A DNA stretch of 64,000 nt. Origin: Marinobacter sediminicola. GTDB lineage: Bacteria > Pseudomonadota > Gammaproteobacteria > Pseudomonadales > Oleiphilaceae. The notes under the pieces were generated by a model. The model made no database searches, was not told where the DNA came from, and saw nothing but the letters and a program-made list of their open reading frames with translations. Both the position numbers and the translations under genes were made by a program. Below are positions 13,026 through 50,038 of this stretch, one piece after another (within the stretch, counting starts at the first letter, position 1; the number at the start of each line of letters is the position of its first letter). The stretch is taken from the NCBI RefSeq assembly GCF_031157525.1, contig NZ_JAVIXR010000003.1, forward strand, positions 310,001 through 374,000, read 5' to 3'.

Positions 13026-13102
<77 letters not shown>

Positions 13103-32100: not shown

Positions 32101-32882
32101 ATGAGAACGCAAGCATTTCGCTCAGCCACAGCCTGCACAGCTTCCCGAAAGGCGCAGGCCCCGGAACCTTTCTGCACGACCTGCTGGAGTGGTGCGTACA
32201 ACAGGGCCTGCAACACATTGTGGATAACCCCGAACACTTGCGTGAGCAGCTCACCCGCCGTTGCAGCACACGAGGCTGGACTGATTGGGTAGATACGCTT
32301 GAACACTGGATACTTGCGCTCATTCGCCAGCCACTGCCGTTGAACCGCAGCGGTGGTGAAAGCGTCAGTCTGGCGAGCCTGGGCACCCTGCGCCCGGAAC
32401 TGGAGTTCTGGTTTGAGAGCCGTAACGTAAGCACCCGGGCCATGGACAAACTGGTGACCCAACACACCCTCAACGGCGCAGACCGACCGCGAGTGGACGA
32501 CGGGCGCTTCAACGGCATGCTGAAAGGCTTTATCGATCTGGTGTTTGAACACAACGGGCAATATTACGTGCTGGACTATAAATCCAACTATCTTGGCGAT
32601 AACGACAGCGCCTACACAGATCAGGCCATGGGCGAGGCGATTCTGGAAAAGCGCTACGACCTGCAATACATCCTCTATTTGCTGGCCCTGCACCGCTTGC
32701 TGAAAGCCCGCTTGCCGGATTATGACTACGACCAGCACATAGGCGGCGCCGTGTATCTGTTTTTGCGCGGCGTACACGCGCCGGGGGCAGGGGCGTTTAC
32801 CGACAAACCACCCAGAGAGTTGATTGAACAACTGGATGCCATGTTCGACGGCAAGGCAGTCCCCGGGGAGGTGGCGGCATGA
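29151..32882 (+). CDS. recB: Exodeoxyribonuclease V subunit beta
   Basis: RecB subunit: 3'-5' SF1A helicase plus the only nuclease of RecBCD. In 1243 residues I see Walker A EASAGTGKTFTIAILYVRF (about 24-42), the second motif VTFTDAATKELRDRI, the DEFQDTDPVQYRIF Walker B region (about 405), GDPKQAIYGFRGADIYTYL (about 442), the late motif TVHKSKGLEYPLVFLPF (about 785) and the C-terminal nuclease active site YYVLDYKSNYLG (about 1140). All catalytic residues appear present. It is coupled to recC and recD by ATGA overlaps. Confidence 0.97.
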   Translation: MTATTVTKNPNLDPLALSLNGSSLIEASAGTGKTFTIAILYVRFVLGHGQPEGSPLAAGMLPPNLLVVTFTDAATKELRDRIRTRLTQAAEVFSSAAESLQPTPETALIHQLRDDSYPDPATWPDCRKKLLLAAEWMDEAAVSTIHAWCNRMLTEHAFDSGSLFRLSLETDQSELLDEVARDYWRTFIYPLSPVLMDEVLSHWKTPDILRASVHNLLVDADSFEVATDDVKQAIEATVQKRMEQAQALKAYPWADWKPEVTDMLIALNKSKRLHGGSMKPMIAAWDKLLDWVASDELYPEGLDKAGFQNQTPDVLPTKLKGEGDAPHHPAFDAIAELIEFSQSLPSAEADILRHASCWIAARLESEKQKRSEMGFDDLLTRLDDALHGPRGDQLAATIRRQFPVALIDEFQDTDPVQYRIFNRIYRVAENHPDTCLLMIGDPKQAIYGFRGADIYTYLDARTGARDRTWTLGRNFRSSKPMVTAVNRVFEHGDLNSPEGAFLFGKGNTSPLPFQGVDANGTKRLWSVNGEVQPSLTLWSLESDQEDKNGNRKGLAKGAATTDVAETCASEIARLLTLGQQGLAGFALEENKGDLEPVEPKDIAILVNNRNEAAAVRDALGQRRIKSVYLSDRDSVLTSQEAKEVLCWLKAFAEPRQLAYARAALATPTLGLPWRYLDQLLTDEMALEREIDRFMGYQKQWQSQGVLPMLRSFLMDFDVPGRLLQRPEGERRLTDILHIAELLQQDSLQLDGEHALVHHYTQILRPADEEDEHRTLRLESDAGLVKVITVHKSKGLEYPLVFLPFGTAFRAQSERQSFVRYHDDHSKLITVFDPTPEDVARADQERLGEDIRKLYVALTRARFATWVGVAEIDNWHLSGLGYLLGGEPAAQHPLSDALKHLVDGHTELCTEALPEATGLRYAEEAPAALGPALISTREAREDWWIASYSSLEYTGLSGTGIAFAGEVEDAETQNLLEEGAHNPEDENASISLSHSLHSFPKGAGPGTFLHDLLEWCVQQGLQHIVDNPEHLREQLTRRCSTRGWTDWVDTLEHWILALIRQPLPLNRSGGESVSLASLGTLRPELEFWFESRNVSTRAMDKLVTQHTLNGADRPRVDDGRFNGMLKGFIDLVFEHNGQYYVLDYKSNYLGDNDSAYTDQAMGEAILEKRYDLQYILYLLALHRLLKARLPDYDYDQHIGGAVYLFLRGVHAPGAGAFTDKPPRELIEQLDAMFDGKAVPGEVAA

Positions 32883-35173
32883 GTAAAACTCGGAATACCG
32901 ATAACCAGTTTACCTTTGATCTGGAAGAAGCCGCTGATGTGGATAACTCACCTTCAGCTTCTCCCAGCCCAGACCCTAGCCTGGCCTTGGACCAAACCAA
33001 AACTGTTCTGGAGCTTCTGGATAGCTGGCAGCAAGCTGGCTGGATTCGCCCGCTGGACGTGCGCTTTGCCCGACTGATTCAAGACCTGTCGGAAGAGCAG
33101 GGCAAAGCACCGCAACCGCTGGTTCTGCTTCTCGCTGCACTGACATCCCATCAGGTTGGCCGGGGCCATGTATGTGTGGATCTGGCTGACCTGATAGCTG
33201 ATGCGAACAGTACTCTCTCCCTCCCAACGGAGGAGCAAGAAAACGCAGATAGCAACCTCAATGGCCCTGAAGAAGTACTGGCTCGCGTATCCACGGAACA
33301 ATGCCTGGGCGCTCTGGGTATGGCTTTGGCGGTAAGTGATGGCTCACACACCACGCCCCTTGTATTGAGTGGTACTCGCCTCTACTTGCGCCGATTCTGG
33401 CGTTACGAACAGAAAATTGCAGCCGGCATTCTGCAGCGTCTGGCACAACCATCTACCCTGGCTGACCCGTCTTCACTGGCTGCAAAAACACTGAGCAATG
33501 CTTTGAACGTATTGTTCAAGCCACAGGGTTCTTCGGGCTCTTCGGTGGACTATCAAAAGCTCGCCTGCGCCCTGGCCGCCCGTAATCGGTTTGCCGTTAT
33601 TACTGGTGGCCCCGGCACCGGCAAAACCACCACAGTAGTAAATTTATTAGCAGCCTTGCAGTCCGTCGCAGGTGAATCTGCCGAGCGAGATGGGCGCAAA
33701 TACCGTATTCGCCTCGCAGCACCCACAGGCAAAGCCGCGGCCCGACTGAACGAATCCATCGGCGGTGCTGTTAGCCGTCTGCCACTGGCACAGCTGCCGG
33801 GGCAGGTGTCTCTCGCGGATATTCCCACCAAAGTAACCACACTCCACAGACTGCTAGGCAGTCGCCCGGACACCCGCAAATTCCGCCATAACCGCGACAA
33901 CCCGCTGCTGGTGGATATTCTGGTGATTGACGAAGCCTCCATGGTGGATCTGGACATGATGGCGTCGGTGTTCGACGCCCTGCCCGCTAACGCCCAACTC
34001 ATTCTGCTGGGCGATAAAGACCAACTGGCCTCGGTAGACGCCGGCGCCGTGCTGGGTGAATTGTGCCAGCGCGCGCCAGACGGGCACTATCTGCCAGAAA
34101 CTGTGCAATGGCTGAAAGCCATAACCGGCACCGACATCCCCGCGAACCTGCAGAACCCCGAAGGCCAGCCGCTGGATCAGGCCGTGGCCATGTTGCGCAA
34201 GAGTTACCGCTTTGCCGAAGGCAGTGGCATTCGCCAACTGGCAGAGGCGGTCAACACCAACACCTTGAACGACAGCATGCTTCAGCAAGCCCGCAGCGCC
34301 GGTTTTGAGGATGTGGTGTGGCTGAATGGCGGTACCAACAAACCCTCTCTGGAAGACGCTCAGGCGCTCATCTGCCGCCATGCGGTCAGTGGCAGCCCGG
34401 AAGCTTTCCACAATAACGGGGAAGGGCGAATCGATGGCAGCAGCCAGCCATTACCGCCGCCGGTAGGCTACCGGCACTACTTATCGCTGATGCAGAGCCA
34501 CACCCTGGACGCTAATAGCACAACTGGACAGTGGGATGAGCTAGCAAGATCTGTATTAGAGGCGTTCAGTGATTTTCAGGTGCTCTGCGCCCTGCGCCGC
34601 GGCCCCTGGGGTGTGGAAGGGCTCAACGAACTCATCGCCCACCACCTGCTCAAGCATAGGCTCATTCCCCGCGCCGAAGGCTGGTACGCCGGGCGCCCGG
34701 TACTGATTACCGGAAACGATTACAACCTGGGCCTGATGAACGGCGACGTAGGCATTACCTTCAGCCTGCCCTGGGGCACTGACGATCAGAACAATGACGC
34801 ACAACCACAGCCAGTATTACGCGTGGCCTTTCCCAGCAGCGATGGCAGCGGCGATATCCGTTGGATATCACCCAGCCGACTACAGCAACTGGAAACCGTG
34901 TACGCCATGACGGTTCACAAATCCCAAGGCTCAGAATTCAATCACACCTGCCTGGTGCTACCCGACCGCCTCAGCCCTGTGCTCACGCGAGAGCTGGTAT
35001 ATACCGGCATCACCCGCGCAAAGAACTGGTTCAGCCTGATAACCGGTGATGCCAGCGTATTCAGCGACGGTGTCGCCCAGAGGGTAGTACGCGCTTCCGG
35101 GTTAGCGTCGGTGTTGGCGTATGGATTGGCGCCTGGGTTAGAGGAGGGAAGCCAAGACTCTGCTGAATCTTGA
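32879..35173 (+). CDS. recD: Exodeoxyribonuclease V subunit alpha
   Basis: RecD subunit, the 5'-3' SF1B helicase of RecBCD. The 764 residues are longer than the roughly 608 of E. coli, with extra acidic and serine/proline-rich sequence at the N-terminus and inserted loops. Walker A is AVITGGPGTGKTTTVVNLLAAL (about 237-258), Walker B VIDEASMVDLDMMASVF (about 350), then LLGDKDQLASVDAGAVLGEL and the late TVHKSQGSEFNHTCLVLP (about 677) and LVYTGITRAK (about 704). The 3' end overlaps, in opposite orientation, the frame of a phage tail sheath gene by 113 bp, but the RecD end itself looks natural. Confidence 0.96.
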   Translation: MSKTRNTDNQFTFDLEEAADVDNSPSASPSPDPSLALDQTKTVLELLDSWQQAGWIRPLDVRFARLIQDLSEEQGKAPQPLVLLLAALTSHQVGRGHVCVDLADLIADANSTLSLPTEEQENADSNLNGPEEVLARVSTEQCLGALGMALAVSDGSHTTPLVLSGTRLYLRRFWRYEQKIAAGILQRLAQPSTLADPSSLAAKTLSNALNVLFKPQGSSGSSVDYQKLACALAARNRFAVITGGPGTGKTTTVVNLLAALQSVAGESAERDGRKYRIRLAAPTGKAAARLNESIGGAVSRLPLAQLPGQVSLADIPTKVTTLHRLLGSRPDTRKFRHNRDNPLLVDILVIDEASMVDLDMMASVFDALPANAQLILLGDKDQLASVDAGAVLGELCQRAPDGHYLPETVQWLKAITGTDIPANLQNPEGQPLDQAVAMLRKSYRFAEGSGIRQLAEAVNTNTLNDSMLQQARSAGFEDVVWLNGGTNKPSLEDAQALICRHAVSGSPEAFHNNGEGRIDGSSQPLPPPVGYRHYLSLMQSHTLDANSTTGQWDELARSVLEAFSDFQVLCALRRGPWGVEGLNELIAHHLLKHRLIPRAEGWYAGRPVLITGNDYNLGLMNGDVGITFSLPWGTDDQNNDAQPQPVLRVAFPSSDGSGDIRWISPSRLQQLETVYAMTVHKSQGSEFNHTCLVLPDRLSPVLTRELVYTGITRAKNWFSLITGDASVFSDGVAQRVVRASGLASVLAYGLAPGLEEGSQDSAES

Positions 35174-36290
35174 GAACAACGAACTCTGCCGGGCGCATCG
35201 GAGCGAAGCCAACCAACAGATTAACGCGGCCTAGGTCGATATCGCTCTGAGTGGTGGTGCTGGAATCACAGCGCACAAACCAGGCATCAGACGCCTTCGT
35301 GCCTTGAAATGCACCCCGCTGGAAAAGGGCCTGCATGAAGGCGCTGGCGGCTGACCGTATCTGCGCCCACAAGCGCTTGCCATTTGGCTCGGTCATGGCC
35401 AATTCCAGTCCACGGGAAAGGCTTTCCTCAATGAACAGCGCCGTGCGGCGGACGGAGATATATTTGTATTCACTGTCACCCGCGTGTTCAAAGCCGGCCA
35501 TAGTACGCGCACCCCAGACCATCACGCCGCCGGCAAATTGTCGCAGCGCGTTGATTCCCTGGGGGTTCGTTATGCTGTTATCGGCACTCGTAATCACATG
35601 CTCTAACCCCGTCACACCCAGAATAGCGGCATTTTTACCCGCCGGTGCTTTCCAGACGCCACGCTGAGTGTCGGTACGCGACATAATGCCCGCTATGGTG
35701 CCGGCCGGATCAATAGGCAAAGTCGAAGAAGCGGCCATAATACGAGGCCAGTAGATGGCGGCATGGTCGATAACATTTCCGATACGCATCCCTGCAACTC
35801 CGGCTGCAGCCTCAGCCGCCGTTTGCCAGTCTCCACGAGGGTCAACGATGAGGAACGCCCGTTGGCGCTGACAGAATACGCTGGCCGCGCCCCACAGTTG
35901 TTGCCGTTGGTCATCCGTCTGCGCCAAACCCCGAGGCAAGGTCAGTAAATTGAATGTATCAACTTCAGACTCAACCGTACTGAAGGCGTTTTCGTAGTCG
36001 ACGAGTTCAGGCGTGTTTCCGTCGTCGCCTTCAATGCGCACGACGACCGCCTCGCCACCCCCATTTAGGAAAAACTGCTTAACCTGCAGCGCCATCTCGC
36101 CATGAGAAACATCAACGCCGAAGGTCTGCTCAAACTCGCCAAACCCTCGAATAATAGTCGGGCTGCTCAGATCACCTTGGCGGGCCATACCGATAAAGAG
36201 TGTTATTGATGTCGGCACACCCGCTATGGTTTTCACTCCCGAGGATGTTTCCTCAACATAAACGCCGGGGTATCTCAGACGTGTTGGCAT
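35061..36290 (-). CDS. Orphan phage/contractile-injection tail sheath protein
   Basis: A 409-residue tail-sheath protein of the type found in contractile phage tails and extracellular injection systems. I start at ATG 36290, with AGGGA upstream. The start RYPGVYVEETSSG (about 5-17), ITLFIGMARQG, the QVKQFFLNGGGEAVVVRI segment (about 75-92), VWGARTM and the C-terminal RVNLLVGFAPMRPAEFVVLKI are strongly sheath-like. The family should end close to that last motif; here the frame runs on for about 35 residues that are simply antisense recD, with no selected look. No tube, baseplate, spike or ATPase gene is nearby. It may be a remnant or a captured gene. Confidence 0.88.
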   Translation of the reverse strand: MPTRLRYPGVYVEETSSGVKTIAGVPTSITLFIGMARQGDLSSPTIIRGFGEFEQTFGVDVSHGEMALQVKQFFLNGGGEAVVVRIEGDDGNTPELVDYENAFSTVESEVDTFNLLTLPRGLAQTDDQRQQLWGAASVFCQRQRAFLIVDPRGDWQTAAEAAAGVAGMRIGNVIDHAAIYWPRIMAASSTLPIDPAGTIAGIMSRTDTQRGVWKAPAGKNAAILGVTGLEHVITSADNSITNPQGINALRQFAGGVMVWGARTMAGFEHAGDSEYKYISVRRTALFIEESLSRGLELAMTEPNGKRLWAQIRSAASAFMQALFQRGAFQGTKASDAWFVRCDSSTTTQSDIDLGRVNLLVGFAPMRPAEFVVLKIQQSLGFPPLTQAPIHTPTPTLTRKRVLPSGRHRR

Positions 36291-36374
36291 AGTCGTTCCC
36301 TGCAAACAATCCATCGAACAGCTTAAACTCACCATAGACCACAATTCTGAGCTCTACATACCGGCCAGGTTAAC

Positions 36375-38180
36375 TTAAACACTCTCCTCGTCTTCATCAC
36401 TGTGCTGTTGCTGCAGCCACAATCTGGCGTAGTAGCCATTCAGTGCCAGCAACTCACTGTGACCACCGCTCTCCACTATTCGGCCATGATCCATTACAAG
36501 AATCGTATCGGCATCTCGCACCGTGGATAAACGGTGTGCGATGACCAGCGTGGTGCGCTGACGGCTGACTTCGTTCAGGGCATCCAGGATTGCCTGTTCG
36601 GAGATGGAGTCCAGCGACGAGGTAGCTTCGTCGAGAATCAACAACGGTGGGTTTTTCAGAAGTACACGGGCAATAGCAACGCGCTGCTTTTCCCCGCCGG
36701 AGAGTTTCAAGCCGCGCTCGCCCACTTTGGTGTCGTAGCCTTCCGGCAGGCTGCGAATGAAGTCGTCCAGGCGCGCCTGCTTTGCAGCATGATGTACCTC
36801 CGCTTCCGTAGCCTCCGGCCTGCCGTATGCGAGGTTACTGTACAGGGTGTCATTGAACAGAACGGTGTCTTGCGGAACCACTCCGATTGCTGAGCGCAGG
36901 CTGTCTTGGCTAACCTCACGAATATCCTGACCATCAATGGTGATGCTGCCTTTATCCACATCAAAAAAACGGAACAACAAGCGGGCGAGGGTGGATTTAC
37001 CGGCACCGCTGGCGCCTACAACGGCCAAGGTGTGACCGGCAGGAATGGTGAAGTCCACATCCTGCAAAATCGGGCGATCTGAACGGTAAGCAAAATGGAC
37101 GTGATGAAAGCCTACCTCGCCTTCGTCCACTACGAGCGCCGAAGCCCCGGGAGCGTCTTTAATCGCGGGTGTTTCACCAAGCAAACCAAACAGGCGTTCC
37201 ACATTCACCAGAGACTGGCGAATTTCCCGATACACAAAGCCCAGAGCGTTCAATGGAATAAACAGTTGAAGCAGATAGGCGTTGATCATGGTGAAGTCGC
37301 CCAGGGTTATAGCACCACTGGCTACTTCTCTCACGGCCATTACCATCATGGTTATCATGGCCAAACCAATTATCAGGGCCTGGCCAGAGTTGAGGGCAGC
37401 CAGAGAAAGGCGGTTTTTCAGCCGTGCCTTCTCCCAGCCTTCCAGATTCTCGTCGTATAGCTCGGCTTCGAATGTTTCGTTATTAAAGTATTTAACGGTT
37501 TCGTAGTTCAGCAGGCTGTCGATGGCGCGGGAGTTGGACTGGTTATCCCGAGCGTTTGCCTCGCGCACGAACTTGGTTCGCCACTCGGTCACTCTGATGG
37601 AGAAAACCACATACACCACCACAGCAATGAGGATGGCAAACACATAGCTGGCGTTAAACGCGACAAATAGAATGCCCGCCACCATCAGGATTTCCAGCAG
37701 GGTGGGGAAAATGTTGAACAGGGTAAAACGTAGCAGGAAGCTGATACCGGTGGTGCCTCGCTCTATGTCGCGGGCCAGCCCCCCGGTTTTTCGATCGAGA
37801 TGGAAAGCCAGTTCCCGGTCGTGCAGGTGGCGGAACACCCGCAGCGACACCCGCCGCATGGCGCGCTCTGCAACCCGAGCGAACACAGCGTCCCGCAATT
37901 CGCCGAACAGGGTGCTGCTAAACCTCAAGGTTCCGTAGGCAACCACCAGCACCACGGGAATCCAAAGCAACAGCTCAGCCTCGCGGCCCTGGTCCAGATA
38001 ATCCACAATGTATTTCAAGGCCACAGGCGTTGCGACCGTCGCCAGTTTTGCCAGTATCAGGAAGGCAACAGACAAGGCTACTCGCCCGCGGAATTCGGCA
38101 AGGTAGGGCCAGAGCCCGGCGATCACTTTCCAGTCAGGCTTGTGGTTAGCGGGGTAATCACTGTCAGCATAAGCGCGCAA
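36375..38180 (-). CDS. ABC exporter, Atm1/HMT-like (fused permease-ATPase)
   Basis: A 601-residue half-transporter with an N-terminal six-helix export domain (about 20-320) and C-terminal ATPase (about 345-590). ATPase motifs: Walker A VGASGAGKSTLARLLFRF (about 392), Q-loop VVPQDTVLFNDTLYSNLAYG, signature LSGGEKQRVAIARVLLKNPP (about 490), Walker B LLILDEATSSLD, and H-loop IAHRLSTV. The segment DRKTGGLARDIERGT in the permease is typical of the Atm1/HMT1 group, which moves glutathione-linked or heavy-metal compounds. The C-terminus has an acidic tail (DEDEES). It works as a homodimer in the inner membrane. It is divergent from the next ABC gene. Confidence 0.9.
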   Translation of the reverse strand: MRAYADSDYPANHKPDWKVIAGLWPYLAEFRGRVALSVAFLILAKLATVATPVALKYIVDYLDQGREAELLLWIPVVLVVAYGTLRFSSTLFGELRDAVFARVAERAMRRVSLRVFRHLHDRELAFHLDRKTGGLARDIERGTTGISFLLRFTLFNIFPTLLEILMVAGILFVAFNASYVFAILIAVVVYVVFSIRVTEWRTKFVREANARDNQSNSRAIDSLLNYETVKYFNNETFEAELYDENLEGWEKARLKNRLSLAALNSGQALIIGLAMITMMVMAVREVASGAITLGDFTMINAYLLQLFIPLNALGFVYREIRQSLVNVERLFGLLGETPAIKDAPGASALVVDEGEVGFHHVHFAYRSDRPILQDVDFTIPAGHTLAVVGASGAGKSTLARLLFRFFDVDKGSITIDGQDIREVSQDSLRSAIGVVPQDTVLFNDTLYSNLAYGRPEATEAEVHHAAKQARLDDFIRSLPEGYDTKVGERGLKLSGGEKQRVAIARVLLKNPPLLILDEATSSLDSISEQAILDALNEVSRQRTTLVIAHRLSTVRDADTILVMDHGRIVESGGHSELLALNGYYARLWLQQQHSDEDEESV

Positions 38181-48571: not shown

Positions 48572-50038
48572 TCAGGTGGTCAGCAATCTCATAAAATTTT
48601 GATAGTCCTCGCGGATCCCGGGATCTGTTTCCTGAAGTTCAAGGATTTTCTTGCACGCATGCAAAACGGTGGTGTGATCTCGACCACCAAACGCATCACC
48701 AATTTCCGGCAGGCTGTGATTCGTCAGCTCTTTGGATAGCGACATAGCTACCTGTCTAGGCCGTGTTATCACACGGGTACGCCGCTTGGAATGCAGGTCC
48801 GCAACTTTAATTTTATAGTACTCTGCCACAGTGCGCTGAATGTTATCTATGCTCACTTGCTTCTCGTGAAGGGCAAGCAGATCTTTCAGGCTTTCCCGAA
48901 TAAACGGTGGCGTAATCTCCGACCCCGTGAAGTGAGCATTCGCTATCACCAAACGAAGCGCCCCTTCGAGCTCTCGTACGTTCGATCGTATTTTTTGGGC
49001 GATAAAAAAAGCCGCTTCGCTACTCAATTTAACATTGGTTTGCTCCGCTTTCTTCATCAGTATCGCAACCCGCGTTTCCAGCTCGGGCGGCTCAACCATC
49101 ACCGTAAGCCCCCAACCAAACCGAGACTTGAGCCGCTCTTCCATATCCACAATTTCTTTTGGAAACCGGTCACAGGTTACGATGACCTGCTGGCCACCTT
49201 CCAATAACGCATTAAAGGTATGGAAGAACTCTTCTTGTGAACGCTCTTTACGGGCAAAAAACTGGATATCATCAATCAGCAACGCATCAACTGACCGGTA
49301 ATACCGCTTGAATTCGTTGATAGCGTTCAGTTGCAGCGCCTTAACCATATCGGCAACAAATCGTTCAGACCGCAAGTAAGCGACCTTCGCATTAGGGTTA
49401 CGACGCACGATGTCGTTCCCGATCGCGTGCATCAGGTGAGTCTTACCCAGACCCACACCGCCATACAGGAACAATGGGTTATATGCACCACCGGGGTTCT
49501 CGGCAACCTGCATGGAGGCCGCCCGCGCGAGTTGGTTTGACTTGCCCTCTACAAAGGTGTCAAACGTAAAGCCTTCGTTCAGAAAGCTCTGGTGTTTGAT
49601 ATCGCCTTCTACTTGAACCGGCCTGCGCCCACCGTTAGATGTGTATTCATTAAGCTGTGATTGCCGATTACCACCTGAGGTAACTGCTACACCTTTTTCT
49701 TCTTCAGTCACTCTGCCACCGGACTCTTCCTGAATCCGCTTGCTGGAATCCTGTTTAACCAGTTCCGAGCGCACGACCGGCTCACTTTCCCGGGGAGCAG
49801 AGCCTACTTTCATTCCTACTCTTGGAGCCTGGCCCCCGTTTAAATCCTTTAGCACTTCCTCTATACGACGAAGATACTTCTCATGGACCCAGTCCATCAC
49901 GAAACGGTTAGGGGCAAACAACATCAGTTGTCCTTCCCGGTGATCAGACTGAAGGGGCCTGAGCCAGGTATTAAACTGTTGCGCGGGAAACTCATCCCGG
50001 AGTACTTCAAGACATTGATGCCACAGTCTGTTCGGCAC
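48572..50038 (-). CDS. dnaA: Chromosomal replication initiator DnaA
   Basis: AAA+ initiator that binds DnaA boxes and melts the origin. I start at the GTG at 50038 (488 residues, beginning [18 protein letters not shown]), because GGGAG lies nine bases upstream and it aligns with the E. coli N-terminus; the longer frame from 50110 adds 24 residues with no ribosome site. Domain I is about 1-80, a variable linker with [14 protein letters not shown] follows, then AAA+ with Walker [17 protein letters not shown] (about 191) and Walker [10 protein letters not shown], and the C-terminal DNA-binding signature [16 protein letters not shown] (about 444). Next to the DnaA-box region and rpmH, as at most bacterial origins. 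Confidence 0.97.

Follow-up and report, generated by a model that had tools for sequence, protein, structure and literature searches.

A 64,000-nucleotide stretch of the Marinobacter sediminicola genome (contig NZ_JAVIXR010000003.1, positions 310,001 to 374,000), hereafter the window, carries a gene for a contractile sheath protein between recD and the gene of an ABC exporter (abcA). According to our analysis this gene is very probably a domesticated, solitary sheath subunit of the extracellular contractile injection system (eCIS) type that has been kept by selection. This level of confidence covers domestication under selection; roles as adaptor or decoy, weighed below, would be alternative functions within the same interpretation. 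A previous sequence-only reading had proposed, among other options, a captured gene with a new use. As far as sequence goes, this is supported by purifying selection in all seven genomes carrying the gene, by the absence of a PF06841 tube gene from these seven, and by the lack of adjoining eCIS parts.

The sheath gene and the absence of an injection machine

The sheath open reading frame reads from 36290 to 35061 on the reverse strand, begins with ATG and encodes 409 residues. The features of the locus, in window positions, are as follows:

35061..36290 (-), solitary sheath gene, 409 residues; ATG at 36290, an alternative in-frame TTG at 36344 being possible
35157..36290 (-), family core (residues 1-378), subject to purifying selection; ratio of nonsynonymous to synonymous substitution (dN/dS) 0.12-0.23 by segment
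36225..36290 (-), N-terminal arm (PGVYVEE...), residues 1-22; first 18 residues absent in G071 and G005
35061..35156 (-), C-terminal tail, residues 379-409 and stop; antisense through recD, dN/dS 1.18-1.22, protein-level selection not apparent
36299..36324 (-), conserved leader block immediately 5' of the start, shared by the five arm-bearing carriers
32879..35173 (+), recD, convergent with the sheath gene; its extension after ...SGLASVL is partly antisense through the sheath 3' end
35061..35173, convergent overlap of recD and sheath gene, 113 bases
36375..38180 (-), ABC exporter gene (abcA), co-directional neighbour upstream of the sheath gene

By profile and fold, the encoded protein is a member of the contractile sheath family. 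It exceeded the curated Pfam cut-offs of both sheath domains, PF04984 (Phage_sheath_1; 49.6 bits, cut-off 31.4) and PF17482 (Sheath_1C, Phage_sheath_1C; 38.3 bits, cut-off 26.9), and matched PHROG tail-sheath families (E 2.2e-49 and 7.1e-46) as well as 20 distinct PDB sequences, with 9ezm on top (E 1.5e-61). The motifs of the N-terminal exchange arm and of the C-terminal strands are both present, and PF04984 matched only once in the whole genome. A structure model of residues 1-383, computed from a 28-sequence alignment with the antisense tail omitted, reached a mean predicted local distance difference test score (pLDDT) of 81.7 and a predicted template modelling score of 0.83, with low confidence at residues 1-17 of the monomer; an earlier model from 16 sequences (pLDDT 48.6) was discarded. 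The model resembles the solved sheath 9gts_2A of a Streptomyces contractile injection system (Z 35.8, root-mean-square deviation 2.5, 326 residues; Foldseek E 6.6e-27). The sheath assignment of the sequence-only reading is thereby confirmed.

The genus was searched for sheath genes across 124 genomes. A sheath match was found in 15 of them and the recD-linked gene, always at this junction, in seven (the carriers), where the window protein shares 67-93% identity with its six orthologues. The order ABC exporter, sheath, recD is the same in 7/7 carriers. Because the junction recurs in seven genomes, a chance occurrence of the sheath frame is excluded.

The tube family PF06841 was missing genome-wide from all seven carriers (other tube families were not searched), and the same search detected it in three of four other Marinobacter genomes. 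We further ran six tblastn queries taken from the complete eCIS of Marinobacter G070, namely its tube, T4gp-like, p376, DUF4255, AAA and DUF4157 components. None matched in the 64-kb window, where the G070 sheath query alone did, and none was found in 19.5 kb around each of the six other carriers (phage-type tube families were not searched there). The component names are putative and follow usage for eCIS clusters; of the six, the tube alone was tested by profile. As controls, a tube match was obtained in 23/23 eCIS-type loci retrieved by similarity (L005-L027) and in 25/29 loci of the class sample described below, within about 1.5 kb on either side. The earlier statement that no tube, baseplate, spike or ATPase gene lies in the window thus holds for these queries. 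The window gene is not part of an eCIS: the neighbours that define such a system were searched for and not found. With regard to a prophage or tailocin remnant, recD and the ABC gene flank the sheath gene directly in 7/7 carriers, and tblastn found no eCIS component in 19.5 kb around the six other carriers, phage-type tube families being outside that search; tail or injection-system genes next to the sheath in relatives were what the sequence-only reading had named as the sign of a remnant.

Selection, anatomy and the recD junction

Substitution rates were estimated by the Nei-Gojobori method over core columns for the seven carriers. All 21 pairs gave a dN/dS of 0.118-0.207 at synonymous distances (dS) of 0.19-1.8. 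By segment the core ranged from 0.12 to 0.23, with the lowest value (0.12) at residues 331-378, which hold the C-terminal strands; the 31-residue antisense tail reached 1.18 among arm-bearing carriers and 1.22 among all, a value that is affected by constraint on recD on the opposite strand and is no clean neutral measure, but does show that selection on the protein is missing there. Core frames are open in 7/7 carriers, and in a simple neutral simulation a single lineage would stay open with a probability of 0.04 at 0.1 changes per site and of 0.005 at 0.2. A pseudogene test was negative, with neither relaxed selection nor a broken core frame. Judged by these substitution patterns, the sheath gene is no dying remnant.

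Two carriers, G071 and G005, possess neither the leader nor the first 18 residues with the PGVYVEE arm. They are sisters on the sheath tree (100/98), and the absence is most simply explained by one loss. Their mutual dN/dS of 0.207 indicates that selection continued after the arm was lost. The leader stands directly 5' of the start codon in the five other carriers, and its 26-base block was found in 17 of 167 loci, all of them junction pieces of these same five; no copy was found in viral contigs, the search having covered loci and viral contigs, not whole genomes. Positions 36299-36349(-) would translate into a short peptide, VVYGxFKLFDGLFAGND, which in G105 is in frame with the sheath. This leader might encode an upstream peptide or a former N-terminus, or might act as a regulatory RNA. 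A scan for sigma-70 promoters gave nothing exceeding chance.

In the AlgoCIS sheath, the wall is built of domains I and II, and domains III and IV point outward, according to PMC8894135. The Marinobacter protein has retained the core but not the long middle insert seen in its eCIS relatives; this insert would correspond to the outward domains. Of the columns that at least 90% of 31 eCIS sheaths have in common, the protein keeps a fraction of 0.80 in the N-terminal arm (where present), 0.83 in the C-terminal strands and about 0.9 in two C-terminal helices, and fewer at residues 23-90 (0.70), 231-275 (0.61) and 297-307 (0.56). The constraint on the C-terminal strands speaks for some strand-mediated contact; that one clade has lost the arm argues against canonical assembly being the sole use.

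Among the 30 genomes nearest by ABC gene, 23 are without the sheath gene. Fourteen of the 23 have recD as the next gene (gap -7 to 390 bases); for the other nine it lay outside the reach examined. The RecD proteins of the 14 end soon after the SGLA motif. The sheath frame extends 47-113 bases into recD in 7/7 carriers, which supports the earlier suggestion that it had lost its own stop, and in five of the seven, including the window, the RecD stop lies inside the conserved C-terminal motif of the sheath. At this one junction, both genes therefore appear to have lost their original ends, each taking a new stop from the other. The sequence-only reading gave the overlap in the window correctly as 113 bases. 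It had also placed the antisense tail right after the usual end of the family; the tail is indeed antisense to recD, but the overlap starts at residue 373 and covers the last five or so family residues (LKIQQ). The sheath of G105 ends 24 residues earlier than the window protein. The recD of G071 (L033) gave two overlapping matches, apparently in different frames (residues 229-476 and 470-763), which points to a frameshift or a sequencing error.

The carriers are scattered on the ABC-gene tree, where six changes are required; the gene has therefore been exchanged or often lost within the genus. A conflict between the sheath and recD trees over G034 and G052 (the recD tree being computed without G071) fits some exchange within the genus. 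The ABC-recD junction seems to be a variable spot across Marinobacter. In G086 (L068), a close non-carrier, no recD lies within 1.5 kb beyond the ABC gene; judged by eye, the sequence there resembles genes for a LysR-type regulator and for an aldo/keto reductase. Elsewhere in the window, Rfam matched AsdA, the antisense RNA of dnaA, at 49385-49465, and the sole tRNA is a tRNA-Pro (cgg) at 13026-13102. The window is probably near the replication origin.

Kinship and solitary sheaths in other lineages

The window protein shares about 40-50% identity with eCIS sheaths, 22-35% with phage sheaths among the matches listed (20 of 194 records) and 28-30% with two viral contigs, and an origin from phage was rejected on these values. 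Plasmid records contain eCIS-like sheaths with up to 50.5% identity over part of the protein. The tree places the recD-linked Marinobacter clade within the eCIS sheaths, with a stem of 1.23 changes per column. G070 and G072 have eCIS loci that fall elsewhere in the same larger clade; the eCIS loci of G010, G040 and G121 belong to a different one. The larger tree, from which branch lengths and state changes were taken, does not include L210. Another Marinobacter genome, G097 (L058:9233-11463), has a 542-residue sheath gene overlapping a 201-residue AAA gene whose Walker A motif appears degenerate by eye. No further eCIS component was found within 20 kb of it and no PF06841 tube in the genome; the pair may be what remains of an eCIS, or a two-gene unit.

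Solitary sheaths were found in six other lineages and have at least five origins besides Marinobacter. Counting L004 as solitary, the tree requires eight state changes in all; a single origin may underlie both G957 and G617. In the phylum sample, 29 of 398 genomes had a sheath match and six a solitary one (G000, G174, G642, G617, G955 and G957); in the class sample, which overlaps with it, the match was found in 39/369, with G000, G174, G198 and G354 solitary. The lack of a tube match within 1.5 kb is by itself weak evidence of a solitary state; all 11 phylum-sample loci without one were read for their surroundings. Nine class-sample genomes were without a locus; four were later shown to have a tube (G289, G499, G401, G529) and five were left out (G411, G325, G233, G468, G305). 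Neither the G070 components nor a second tube query matched in the 14-20 kb read around the lone sheath loci outside Marinobacter, and a genome-wide search for PF06841 found none in G198, G354 and G097 and one match in G174.

The sheaths of G354 and G580, 85% identical to each other, are flanked by pdxH on one side and a small gene of unknown family on the other, with a dN/dS of 0.14 at a dS of 0.63; this pdxH-linked form occurs in 2/62 family members. The small gene begins about 18 bases after the sheath in both genomes (L155:8708-10365 and L167:7960-9618), has no Pfam family and probably encodes a secreted protein; the gene order is conserved in the two. The solitary sheath of G198 is flanked by a beta-propeller gene and a kelch gene, that of G642 stands between thrS and a BrkB gene, and that of G617 between a hemerythrin gene and a NUDIX gene; G174 has a further one. 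The closely related genomes G955 (L205:9403-10893) and G957 (L206:8733-10223) carry theirs directly behind an oppC-like oligopeptide-permease gene. These two are 98% identical, and their 10.5 nonsynonymous and 18.5 synonymous changes are too few to be given weight. In G642, G617 and G957 the C-terminal sheath domain alone passes the Pfam cut-off. The sequence-only reading had proposed a search for homologues with the same neighbours: within Marinobacter these exist, in the seven carriers, whereas the other solitary sheaths have different ones. As these adjoin unrelated genes, the proximity to recD looks incidental, as had been cautioned earlier. No connection of the sheath gene with RecBCD function was seen.

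Several further candidates were not counted as solitary. Of the 11 phylum-sample loci, L194, L195 and L196 look phage-like by eye and L197 (G529) proved to be a tube-bearing cluster of two sheaths; L151 (G448) has two sheaths. G097 was set aside for the short AAA gene beside its sheath, and for L004 (Opitutales) the contig ends 254 bases past the gene; neither this stretch nor the preceding 3.3 kb has an eCIS match. In G927 (L208:7481-10626) a Phage_base_V/GPD (spike-hub) gene comes after the sheath and no tube was recognised; the pair may be a reduced two-gene unit. The idea that solitary sheaths are always trimmed was not upheld. Complete tube-linked sheaths were long in 21/21 cases of the class sample and three solitary ones short, and 3/16 tube-linked ones were short in the phylum sample (p 0.065, in a test that predates the reading of the G955, G957 and G617 surroundings); the solitary proteins of G955, G957 and G617 are long, at about 470 residues.

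Possible functions and comparison with known sheaths

We posit that an eCIS sheath gene was captured alone, or that an eCIS at the junction was lost except for its sheath. The outward domains would then have gone while the wall-forming core was retained for a role needing neither tube nor injection. Using its C-terminal strands and, in carriers that still have it, the N-terminal arm, the subunit may self-associate, and the product would be a tube-less, polysheath-like oligomer in the cytoplasm. Such self-assembly is our leading but unproven mechanism, put forward tentatively. On a wider scale, we see an even chance that bacteria have repeatedly taken single sheath subunits from contractile injection systems and kept them as stand-alone cytoplasmic polymers or sheath inhibitors, the Marinobacter gene being a long-kept example with one arm-less clade.

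Several observations weigh against our main interpretation. The gene is patchy (7/124 genomes, six changes on the abcA tree) and thus dispensable. Its neighbours evolve under lower dN/dS, 0.061-0.143 for recD and 0.024-0.061 for abcA, and the arm segment has the highest value of the core (0.229, over 22 residues only). Two of the seven orthologues are without the arm and still constrained (0.207). In assembled sheaths this arm reaches into the next subunit (PMC6088184), and with the arm lost and the constraint kept, canonical mesh assembly can hardly be needed in the clade of G071 and G005. A tube or second sheath exists elsewhere in some solitary cases, namely one PF06841 match in G174 and a second sheath in G642, and no partner gene was seen in common across the solitary lineages.

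The sheath core might also act as an adaptor or binding protein, engaging an unrelated partner in the cell either as a monomer or in small oligomers. The constrained, arm-less proteins of G071 and G005 would suit this, as would the long branches expected upon a change of job: besides the Marinobacter stem of 1.23, branches measure 1.03 for the stem of G354/G580, 1.12 for G198, 1.07 for G957 and 0.81 for G617, at a median end branch of 0.32. However, the branches of solitary G174 (0.58) and G642 (0.38) are not unusually long, most conserved eCIS columns are kept (0.83 in the C-terminal strands) and no candidate partner was seen, so that we regard the adaptor role as rather doubtful. Alternatively, when a contractile phage, tailocin or eCIS invades, a lone subunit could enter its sheath during growth and block it, the arm-less form being a chain terminator. 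Patchy presence, a sheath evolving faster than its neighbours, and an arm-less clade under continued selection that keeps one of two exchange strands are in line with such a decoy or poison. Nevertheless, we consider it unlikely: at 22-35% identity among the phage matches listed, 28-30% to two viral contigs and 40-50% to eCIS sheaths, the would-be targets are probably too distant for co-assembly, and PADLOC, whose library covers described defence systems only, gave no family (E <= 0.001) for the window protein and four other solitary sheaths.

A non-functional remnant of a decayed eCIS or prophage, open by chance, would account for a single gene from a multi-gene machine, and the apparent eCIS remnant of G097, the shortened G105 protein and the two arm-less orthologues could be seen in the same light. 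The selection tests reject it, with low dN/dS over a wide range of dS, intact core frames in every carrier and a neutral-looking tail as internal control, and the G354/G580 sheaths are likewise constrained; we therefore strongly disfavour it as very improbable. The earlier notion of a gene left behind is possible as history, but not as present decay. A spare sheath part for another machine, such as the type VI secretion system (T6SS) that the carriers seem to have, is equally remote. A gp25-family match occurs once in each of 6/7 carriers and three to four spike-family matches in each of 7/7, elsewhere in the genome and, for the window genome, all on other contigs; frame sizes of 143 residues for the former and mostly 527-943, with a few of 110-331, for the latter suggest TssE and VgrG of a T6SS. 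According to PMC5797969, however, the T6SS builds its own two-part VipA/VipB sheath. A Pfam scan of the window protein (E <= 0.001) returned PF04984 and PF17482 only and no VipA/VipB (TssB/TssC) family, by which a T6SS part was rejected; there is no link in gene order, and G105 keeps the sheath gene without a gp25 match.

We thus return to the domesticated, selected subunit. A sheath under selection where no tube gene is found would mean that the subunit is useful by itself, and the locus offers a small system for asking what sheath subunits do without injection. The recurrence of solitary sheaths and the naturally arm-less variants make this question directly testable. For annotation, a lone "phage tail sheath" gene proves neither a prophage nor an eCIS. 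To our knowledge, sheath proteins have been studied as parts of machines, and our literature search, which covered few subscription papers or bioRxiv preprints, found no report of naturally conserved solitary or domesticated sheath genes.

Compared with known systems, the window protein has the core, N-terminal arm motif, C-terminal strands and fold of the eCIS sheaths of the G070 clade and of the solved 9ezm, 8bky and 7adz (AlgoCIS Alg2). It differs from them in having no tube, baseplate, spike or ATPase gene nearby, in its antisense tail and its own locus, and in its 409 residues without outward extra domains, whereas tube-linked members of the clade have about 490-700. The solitary sheaths of other lineages likewise show no match to eCIS components in the 14-20 kb read but differ in neighbours and arose separately. 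In size and single-core architecture the window protein equals the one-domain (type 1) contractile sheaths of 321-410 residues, for which phages, bacteriocins, T6SS, Afp and predicted bacterial and archaeal genes are given as examples in PMC9230969; unlike these, it has no adjoining machine and falls on trees among the longer eCIS sheaths. Tube-free assembly of sheath proteins is possible (PMC6088184), and the gp053 sheath of phage FV3 forms polysheath upon laboratory over-expression without other tail parts (PMC6357053). In the Marinobacter gene, by comparison, the solitary state is natural and conserved.

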